Source: Dyella subtropica (GTDB lineage Bacteria; Pseudomonadota; Gammaproteobacteria; Xanthomonadales; Rhodanobacteraceae). Taken from it: a stretch of 64,000 bases of DNA. Below, one piece after another: positions 51,833 through 53,447 of the stretch. Location of the stretch: NCBI RefSeq assembly GCF_026283965.1, contig NZ_JAPDPD010000010.1:1-64000 (forward strand). The letters are read 5' to 3'. The stretch's first letter is position 1. Every line of letters starts with the position of its first letter. A model generated the notes under the pieces. It made no database searches. It was not told the DNA's origin and worked only from the letters and a program-made list of their open reading frames with translations. The translations under genes were made by a program, and so were the position numbers.

Positions 51833-52228
51833 ATGAGCGAGATTCCCGGCGATCTGAAGTTTCTCAAGTCCCACGAGTGGGCCCGTGTCGAAGACAACGG
51901 CCTGGTGCGTGTAGGTATTTCCGACCATGCCCAGAGCGCGCTCGGCGACCTGGTCTACGTGGAGCTGCCGGAGATCGGCGCCAGCGTGCAAGCCGGCAAC
52001 GGCGCGGCGGTGGTCGAGTCGGTGAAGGCCGCTTCCGACATCTACTCGCCGGTGTCGGGCGAGGTGGTCGAGGTCAACGAGGCGTTGGCCGACAAGCCGG
52101 AAACCATCAACGAGGACGCCTATGGCGACGGCTGGATCTTCGTGGTGCGCATCAGCAACCGTGATGAGCTCAACGAGCTACTCGACGCGGACGCCTACGC
52201 CGAAGTGATCGAGAACGAAGATCACTGA
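51833..52228 (+). CDS. gcvH: Glycine cleavage system H protein
   Basis: A 131-residue lipoyl carrier that shuttles the aminomethyl group between GcvP, GcvT and GcvL. The lipoylated Lys65 is in [11 protein letters not shown], and [30 protein letters not shown] and [11 protein letters not shown] are typical. It follows gcvT in one transcription unit and is followed by a GAAA-capped hairpin. Confidence 0.96.
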
Positions 52229-52279: not shown

Positions 52280-52824
52280 TGTGTCGGGGGGCAAGGTGGT
52301 GCAGATCGCCTCTGCGGTATCGCGTACACGGCTTCATCACGATGCGTTTGTCGCATTCACGCCCGACCTCCTCGCGGCGCATGCCCATCGATGGTGATCG
52401 AGTTGACAGGTTCGCGATGACCGATGCGATGACGCGCCTGCGTGGCGAATCGGATCGGATTGTCGAAGCGTCGAGGCGTCGAGTGACGTGTTCGTCGATG
52501 CCCGTCGGGATGTCTTGAGCGCGATTTTCGGGTCGTCGCGTGGGGTGAGGGTGCCGGCGCTCAGTCGAGTTTCGTTCATCCATGGGAGCCCGCCGAACGG
52601 GGTGTCGCTAAGTCTTTGCGCGCCAACGAGTTGCGTTGTTTCATCGGGCGCATGCGTAATCGAGCGATATTCATAAAAACCCTGTTTTATGCGGGTTTTG
52701 TGCAGATTTTGCTTTTGTTGGTATTTATTTGTTTGGGTGTATAGACGTCCAATCAAATATAGCCATGTGGCCCGGAATGCCTTGTGGGACAGGGTTTCCG
52801 GGCTGGATGGGATGGGTGAGGCGG

Positions 52825-52848
52825 ATTGATTTCATGATTAAAATCAAT
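52825..52848. promoter_or_regulatory. Operator-like dyad overlapping the -35 of the MetJ-H1 gene
   Basis: ATTGATTT (52825-52832) and AAATCAAT (52841-52848) are perfect inverted halves separated by 8 bases; the right half ends where the -35 hexamer begins. Such placement would let a bound dimer block RNA polymerase. It does not match the MetJ consensus AGACGTCT. Confidence 0.45.
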
Positions 52849-52876
52849 TGACAGCTGAAATGTTCGGGAATAGCTT
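52848..52876 (+). promoter_or_regulatory. Sigma-70-like promoter of the MetJ-H1 gene
   Basis: A perfect TTGACA (52848-52853) is followed after 17 bases by TAGCTT (52871-52876), a weak -10. Transcription would begin about 20 bases before the ATG at 52905, with GGGGA as ribosome site in between. Confidence 0.5.
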
Positions 52877-52904: not shown

Positions 52905-53447
52905 ATGGCATCATCGAAATTCATCAAGCCGTATGTCGAGCACGGCGAAAAGGCCGGGGCAGTACGCAAGATTACGGTCTCCATTCCGCTGCACGTTCTG
53001 CAGCCCCTGTCGGACGAACGTACCCGTCGTCAAGTGAACAATCTTAGGCACGCCACCAATAGCGATTTGCTGGTTGAGGCGTTCCTGCATGCTTTTACTG
53101 GGCAACCACTGCCAACTGATGAGGAGCTGAGACGAACTATGGCCACTGCCAAGAAAGCCACCAAGAAACCGGCCGCTAAAAAGGCCGTCAAGAAAACCGC
53201 CGTGAAGAAGGCCGCCGCGAAGAAGCCGGTTGCCAAGAAGCCGGCCGCCAAGAAGGCCGTTCGCAAGGTCGCCAAGAAGGCTGTCGCCAAGAAGCGTCCG
53301 GCGGCTGCTAAGAAGGCTGCCGTAAAGAAGGTCGCCGTGAAGAAGGTTGCCAAGAAGGCCGCCAAGAAGCGCACCGTGAAGAAGGCTGCTGCTGCCAAGG
53401 TGGTCAAGGCCACCAAGACCGCAAAAGCCAAGACCGCCAAGAAGTAA
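52905..53447 (+). CDS. MetJ-like repressor fused to a histone H1-like Lys/Ala tail
   Basis: A 180-residue protein. Residues 1-78 match the MetJ methionine repressor almost throughout: the N-terminal arm ([12 protein letters not shown]), the DNA-contacting beta strand KITVSIP at 22-28, helix A with [18 protein letters not shown] and helix B with [13 protein letters not shown], which hold dimer and SAM-binding contacts in E. coli MetJ. The final MetJ helix is missing. From residue 79 the protein changes to about 100 residues of AAKK/VKK-type repeats like AlgP or histone H1-like proteins. A second ATG at 53139 encodes the first residue of the tail. The fused protein could be a nucleoid-binding or SAM-responsive regulator; neither is shown. 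Confidence 0.85.

Follow-up and report, generated by a model that had tools for sequence, protein, structure and literature searches.

How a site-specific repressor and a histone-like tail came to share one open reading frame, and whether the seam between them serves as more than a linker, are the questions raised by a gene, here called metJ-H1, in the 64,000-nucleotide stretch of Dyella subtropica DNA that was analysed (the window). The account favoured below, with fair confidence, is that one gene gives two proteins: a SAM-dependent repressor whose tail would condense DNA, and, from an internal start, an H1-like protein free of the repressor. The main oddity of metJ-H1, missed by the first-pass annotation, is its frozen junction nucleotides, together with the likely internal start.

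Domains of the fused protein

The first-pass annotation had described a MetJ protein fused in frame to an H1-like tail, and this description is borne out. No stop codon interrupts the single open frame across the junction of the two parts, and the identity given to the N-terminal part is right: Pfam MetJ (PF01340) matches residues 4-81 with 125.1 bits against a cut-off of 25 (E 1.1e-36), the NCBIfam MetJ equivalog matches residues 3-83 with 130.7 bits against a cut-off of 110, and Escherichia coli MetJ (1CMA/1CMC) is aligned by phmmer to residues 3-81 with an E value of 6.6e-32. Besides metJ-H1, a search of the source genome found no second MetJ. Translation beginning at position 52905 would produce a MetJ repressor that ends in an H1-like tail.

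The likeness to MetJ covers the alignment of residues 4-81 with profile positions 4-81 of 97, the retention of DNA-contact and salt-bridge residues, and the presence of Met-boxes at metX in the same genomes. The profile match stops at position 81, short of the C-terminal helix C, and, unlike E. coli MetJ, metJ-H1 has in place of this helix a 100-residue tail of the AAKK type, which in the window is longer than the MetJ part. The proposal that the tail had replaced an E. coli-type helix stands as far as the absence of the helix is concerned, but 16 tail-less MetJs read from other families of the order stop shortly beyond that point as well, so that loss of the helix need not stem from the tail. 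Against H1-like families the tail gives matches, to Pfam HC2 (E 6.8e-5, 23.5 bits) and NF038053 (17.8 bits), that are weak and lie below the respective cut-offs of 40 and 80. Structure prediction for the full fused protein with AlphaFold2 was poor (mean pLDDT 52.3). The features of the locus are collected in Table 1.

Table 1. Features of the metJ-H1 locus, in window coordinates
Feature	Position	Strand	Basis
gcvH, upstream neighbour marking the shared locus (gcvT before gcvH)	51833..52228	+	locus comparison
Met-box-like AGACGTCC, 7/8 by eye	52743..52750	+	upstream-region reading
TTGACA (52848-52853) with weak -10 TAGCTT, before metJ-H1	52848..52876	+	by eye; alike in many relatives
metJ-H1 fused open reading frame, 180 aa	52905..53447	+	ORF reading
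Ribbon-helix-helix repressor domain of MetJ type (residues 4-81), lacking the C-terminal helix present in E. coli	52914..53147	+	Pfam PF01340 E 1.1e-36, NCBIfam, 1CMA
SAM-contact residues 38 and 41	53016-53018, 53025-53027	+	alignment of 109 fused MetJ domains
Junction element, codons 63-77, frozen synonymous sites; corresponds to leader of standalone H1-like genes	53091..53135	+	entropy, leader profile
GAGGAG, Shine-Dalgarno-like, codons Glu73-Glu74	53121..53126	+	codon conservation
Internal ATG (Met79), at start codon position of standalone H1-like genes of sister families	53139..53141	+	ATG 108/109, GTG 1/109
AAKK/VKK tail of H1 type; probable nested gene encoding a free 102-aa H1-like protein	53139..53447	+	weak profile matches, synteny after gcvTH

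The annotation knew of no described protein of this kind, and the open-licence literature searched likewise yielded no description of a MetJ-H1 fusion. If the reading given here is true, metJ-H1 would be, to our knowledge, the first site-specific, metabolite-controlled repressor with a histone-H1-like tail. Its AAKK/VKK tail resembles those of bacterial H1-like proteins such as AlgP and, in the available text of PMC8578834, Hc2 and the "Histone H1" of Xanthomonas; metJ-H1 differs from these in having a sequence-specific and, by prediction, ligand-controlled domain in front. The combination of a folded DNA-binding domain with a lysine-repeat tail is shared with mycobacterial HupB and with the lysine-tailed TopA of actinobacteria, where, according to the available portions of the two papers, the tail is needed for nucleoid association (PMC5676037) and for processivity (PMC7398561), respectively. 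Neither HU nor TopA is a site-specific repressor under ligand control, and a nested gene is not mentioned in those portions. The lysine-rich tail of metJ-H1 would add sequence-independent affinity for DNA, which should prolong residence there, and it may compact or bridge DNA near Met-boxes.

Spread of the fusion and its unfused relatives

In what follows, f1 is the family of the source genome, taken as Rhodanobacteraceae because the named loci all come from that family, and f2-f12 are the other families of the order. A whole-protein search of 61 genomes matched all 37 from f1, and the fused frame is present in 37/37, representing 26 genera; the best 80 of 523 confirmed relatives include Dyella, Frateuria, Luteibacter, Rhodanobacter, Oleiagrimonas, Mizugakiibacter, Rudaea, Tahibacter, Dokdonella and metagenome-assembled genomes (MAGs), and the named loci among them likewise read as one fused frame. 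A frameshift or assembly error joining two genes, an explanation with low-complexity sequence and nothing more in its favour and one that the annotation itself had raised, is refuted by the identical frame in independent assemblies of 26 genera and retains a practically negligible probability.

At the level of the domain, Pfam MetJ scores over its cut-off in 226 of 233 f1 genomes and in all 26 genera. The seven others, six without a match and one with a weak match, are all drafts of 79-94% completeness, and 190/192 f1 assemblies with completeness of 90% or more and contamination of 5% or less have a match. Of 398 genomes from the whole order, 145 encode MetJ (125 from f1, 13 from f9, six from f12 and one from f8), with none in f2-f7, f10 or f11. 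The collected set comprises 116 fused genes, six of which are truncated at a contig end; every one of the remaining 110 has a tail rich in K, A and R, of 35-309 residues. Among 16 regions fetched because of short frames in f1, six (G412, G413, G447, G426, G384 and G402) run off their contigs, which does not imply that they are tail-less. With L001 left out as a copy of L002, the 116 genes give 109 distinct MetJ-domain sequences. Eight of the 109, belonging to at least two lineages, lack one codon immediately ahead of the tail, with the frame kept.

Outside the 116 stands a gene from a Luteibacter MAG (G394, NZ_WNDO01000005.1; L094, also L326), whose MetJ part is interrupted by an in-frame TGA. 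Its junction element and H1 start are intact, and the stop codon is either an error of the MAG or the mark of a recent repressor loss in which the nested gene was retained.

These counts place a repressor fixed throughout a family within an order for which a published survey, in the text available, lists a MetJ regulon in 0/4 Xanthomonadales genomes (Leyn 2014, PMC4239095). The accessible parts of two other papers report metJ as missing in Xanthomonas campestris 8004 (PMC6230763), which fits f2, and state in general wording that the MetR/MetJ system appears conserved in Xanthomonas (PMC7270179).

The two halves of metJ-H1 also occur apart. In four sister families that have no MetJ, an AAKK H1-like gene stands alone after gcvT-gcvH (f2, L116 and L117; f3, L114 and L115; f4, L118; f6, L119), in the order gcvT, gcvH, H1-like gene, followed by tonB-like, beta-lactamase-like, lemA or htpX neighbours. 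Further f2, f3 and f4 genomes have this standalone gene too. It was not found after gcvH in 14 of 18 further stretches, some of them short, namely one from f4 (L228) and all from f5 and f7-f12. Most standalone genes begin MATKKAAKK, MAMKKAAKK or MATAKKTTAKK, at what corresponds to Met79 of the fusion, and metJ-H1 matches the Xanthomonadales post-gcvTH genes in locus, leader and start word alike. By gene order and sequence, the tail of metJ-H1 corresponds to the standalone post-gcvTH H1-like gene of the sister families. On the MetJ side, the proteins of f12, f9 and f8 (16 of 20 read) are about 79-97 aa long and have no H1-like tail.

The annotation had held that separate genes in homologues would mark the fusion as an artefact. 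Separate genes do exist, the H1-like one in sister families and tail-less MetJ in f12, f9 and f8, but within f1 the two parts form one frame in all genomes read except the one MAG, and the fusion is no artefact. As judged from sequence comparison, the fusion of a methionine repressor to a resident H1-like gene is fixed in f1, and the start and leader of the H1 gene are kept inside it. An rpoB tree places f6, f3, f4, f2 and f1 together with support of 89/89, which is not strong, and f12 next to this group, with 100/100 for the whole; it comprises 28 of 30 genomes, as G040 gave no match and the gene of G054 is split. The families constitute a natural experiment, in which tail and repressor each occur both alone and joined to the other and the frozen coding element has a noncoding twin in sister families, so that tail function, internal starts and gene fusion by loss of a stop codon become directly testable.

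The source genome has a second K/A-rich H1-like frame (L283, G000:C4:135823-136209), which is unfused and starts MSIDTEFEV; similar frames occur in several f1 genomes. Because of this other unfused protein, the supply of free H1-like protein need not come from metJ-H1.

A frozen element at the junction

Among the 109 distinct fused genes, mean normalised synonymous entropy is 0.196 in codons 63-77 as against 0.687 in codons 4-62 (Mann-Whitney U, p 1.9e-7), and the lowest 15-codon window outside the junction reaches 0.58. Several codons are invariant or nearly so, among them ACT (109/109), GGG (108/109) and AGA (all 104 genes with Arg76), and these are rare in the rest of the MetJ domain; codons 72, 75 and 77 are less constrained than the others of the element. 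In 16 unfused metJ genes codons 64-70 are free at synonymous sites, from which it follows that the freeze accompanies the fused state. The frozen bases may act as an RNA leader, as a promoter or in both ways. Pausing at rare codons is a disfavoured explanation, because sister families conserve these bases too, at a position ahead of the H1 frame.

Near the end of the element, the GAG codon is used in 108/108 genes for Glu73 and in 109/109 for Glu74, and the resulting GAGGAG also precedes most of the standalone H1-like genes read. Junction words recur before the standalone genes, for example as ACTGGGCAACACACACAACCACTAACGAGGAGCTAAGAC in f3 and GCCAACTGACGAGGAG in f2, and the pattern CTGGGCA..GAGGA..ATGGCNAC is found in 91 of 299 genomes of the order, some from MetJ-less families, with a reversed control that gave 0 in all rows listed. 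At four of 18 pattern matches fetched (G061, G146, G224 (f8) and G258 (f2)) no H1-like gene was seen.

The same correspondence was recovered with a profile of 23 MetJ-less leaders cut before the Shine-Dalgarno-like word. Of 27 standalone leaders collected, four were left out: L206 and L207 (as L205), L208, which shares its genome with L166, and L230, an f4 gene whose leader is without the ACTGGGCAA word. The best match of the profile in the 64-kb window lies at 53092-53119 (E 0.0071, the next at 1.9). At E values up to 1 it matches the junction in 104 of 110 f1 loci, or 105 with L094, and has one match elsewhere; the junctions of L027, L031, L050, L084 and L093 gave no match. RNA folding of the junction was no better than that of shuffled sequence (z -0.64 and 0.19), and three Rfam matches were all far below gathering scores. 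In five f2 standalone leaders (L195, L198, L204, L167 and L117) a hairpin of varying sequence, noted by eye, stands directly before ACTGGGCA, and a terminator-like stem, also by eye, lies farther upstream of it.

A second start at Met79 (53139), with the GAGGAG of Glu73-Glu74 as ribosome-binding site, is the proposed source of a free H1-like protein equal to the standalone product of the sister families. The word ends 12 nt before the ATG, a spacing longer than usual, which counts against an internal start. It is also conceivable, though unlikely, that full-length MetJ-H1 is the sole product and that the frozen junction is some other DNA or RNA element, such as an internal promoter, an sRNA site or a regulator site. 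The T-rich stretch and GGGC before the Shine-Dalgarno-like word could belong to a promoter, though a consensus scan found none on the + strand, and in one genome (G011/L027) the frame has been kept where the element has decayed. This explanation is opposed by the way the element ends, in GAGGAG followed by ATG in 108 of 109 genes and GTG in one, even where a codon is missing before the ATG, and by the occurrence of the same words at the start of standalone H1-like genes in sister families.

The decayed case merits description on its own account. In G011 (L027/L342) Met79 has become a GTG-encoded Val and the frame is still open, with gcvT and gcvH 1.8 kb upstream on the same strand (19.5 kb read), making this gene a natural candidate for a fusion with a single product.

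How the element arose is a separate matter. Under the favoured account, a MetJ that already had no C-terminal helix would have been brought next to the H1-like gene that follows gcvTH, immediately upstream of it; the final 45 nt of metJ would have become the leader of that gene, and the sister families would later have lost the repressor body but kept this stub. Tentatively, as a possibility worth keeping in view, the 3' end of metJ may be in double use, as the end of a repressor and as the conserved control leader of a nested H1-like gene, possibly including a site of autogenous control by MetJ-H1 or H1. If so, several families lost the repressor and kept the 45-nt stub as an untranslated leader, the end of a dead repressor now controls a chromatin protein there, and in Rhodanobacteraceae the level of SAM and the supply of a nucleoid protein are tied together through one gene.

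The opposite order, in which the element was an old possession of the H1-like gene that metJ joined later in Rhodanobacteraceae, its synonymous codons being tuned to rebuild the leader, is a rather improbable alternative with several observations on its side. The standalone gene with its leader occurs in four families and the fusion in one; f12 and f9, which are outside in the rpoB tree, have MetJ, and what was read of them downstream of gcvH showed no H1-like gene; and the leader profile found no match at the 3' ends of 10 unfused metJ loci. However, unfused MetJs from other families also have residues resembling TGQPLPTDE, and the leaders of f4 and f6 retain, by eye, codon traces of TGQ..LPT and GQP.PTD, which this order of events would have to ascribe to coincidence.

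Met-boxes and predicted control by SAM

Under the favoured account of two products, the MetJ part, as a dimer with SAM, would bind the tandem Met-boxes that precede metX and, probably, those ahead of its own gene. The residues expected to read DNA are retained, with Lys22 in 108 and Thr24 in all of 109 fused MetJs, equivalent to the DNA-contact residues Lys23 and Thr25 of E. coli MetJ. Arg39, Arg42 and Glu58 are each present in 109/109 and correspond to Arg40, Arg43 and Glu59 of E. coli, the roles of which are described in the available text of PMC2775130; all five belong to the DNA-contact and core residues of MetJ. The position of E. coli Thr37 is Ser in 106 and Ala in three of the 109.

Less uniform is the SAM-contact pair, given for E. 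coli as Glu39 and Arg42 in the same portion of PMC2775130. Its counterpart, Glu38/Arg41, is retained in 73 of 109 members, that of the window among them, and changed in 36, in 35 of them to Leu38 with His, Tyr, Glu or Ser at 41 and in one to Glu/His, so that SAM control may differ among members. Two genomes with a changed pair, G008 and G022, still have Met-boxes at metX, and the effector used may therefore differ as well.

That the protein should act at Met-boxes, as the annotation proposed, is supported by the boxes at metX and, in many relatives, upstream of metJ-H1. In the source genome tandem boxes matching 15 of 16 positions precede a gene over the cut-off for MetX (homoserine O-succinyltransferase). 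Scores of 13-16 of 16 were obtained at metX in 18/18 f1 genomes, that of 13 in G011 being not above control, since shuffled metX loci reach 13 at most. In the MetJ-less families f2, f3, f4 and f6, 0/11 metX loci pass 11 of 16; one of the 11, L325, and the sole f12 locus, which scores 9, show only 34-37% identity and probably represent paralogues. With its Met-boxes near metX, metJ-H1 still looks, in sequence terms, like a methionine repressor.

Upstream of the gene itself, the tandem Met-box of the window scores 11 of 16 when counted by hand, a value that about 10% of shuffles equal or exceed, and it is weak because the boxes adjoining AGACGTCC are poor. Better tandem boxes lie at the same place in many relatives: a score of at least 12 of 16 is found in 74 of 108 distinct f1 regions, as against mononucleotide-shuffled controls of which about 1.1% reach 12 and fewer than 0.05% reach 13. 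The TTGACA/TAGCTT pair in Table 1 was not reported by a promoter scan.

The Met-boxes at metX also bear on whether the protein is a regulator at all. It might instead be a nucleoid protein in which MetJ merely anchors a packing tail to DNA, and the length of the tail in the window, exceeding that of the MetJ part, is in keeping with this, as are two precedents from partly available papers. HupB needs a similar tail for nucleoid association (PMC5676037), and CdbA of Myxococcus xanthus, a ribbon-helix-helix protein like MetJ that binds c-di-GMP, is important for chromosome organisation (PMC7156744); CdbA differs from metJ-H1 in its ligand and in not being a MetJ, and an H1-like tail is not mentioned in the text available. 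Since Met-boxes at metX track the presence of MetJ (18/18 versus 0/11) and the DNA-reading residues are kept in fused MetJs, a purely architectural role is quite improbable.

Beyond metX, a Met-box scan of the source genome at three mismatches is noisy, with 17 sites as against 16 in the control, and of ten loci read only metX and a cysG/CysB-like pair appeared related to sulfur. The latter site (L221, G000:C11:429095-429110) is a Met-box-like pair with three mismatches that separates cysG from a divergently oriented gene for a CysB-like regulator, and is likely due to chance. The other best tandem Met-box (L214, G000:C16:18738-18753), with one mismatch, adjoins no recognised methionine gene and lies by a glycine-rich lipoprotein-like frame. 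In proteomics of Rhodanobacter thiooxydans FW510-R12, according to the portion of the paper available (PMC12146267), MetJ rises with nitrate and four methionine enzymes fall; R. thiooxydans LCS2 (L081) carries the metJ-H1 fusion.
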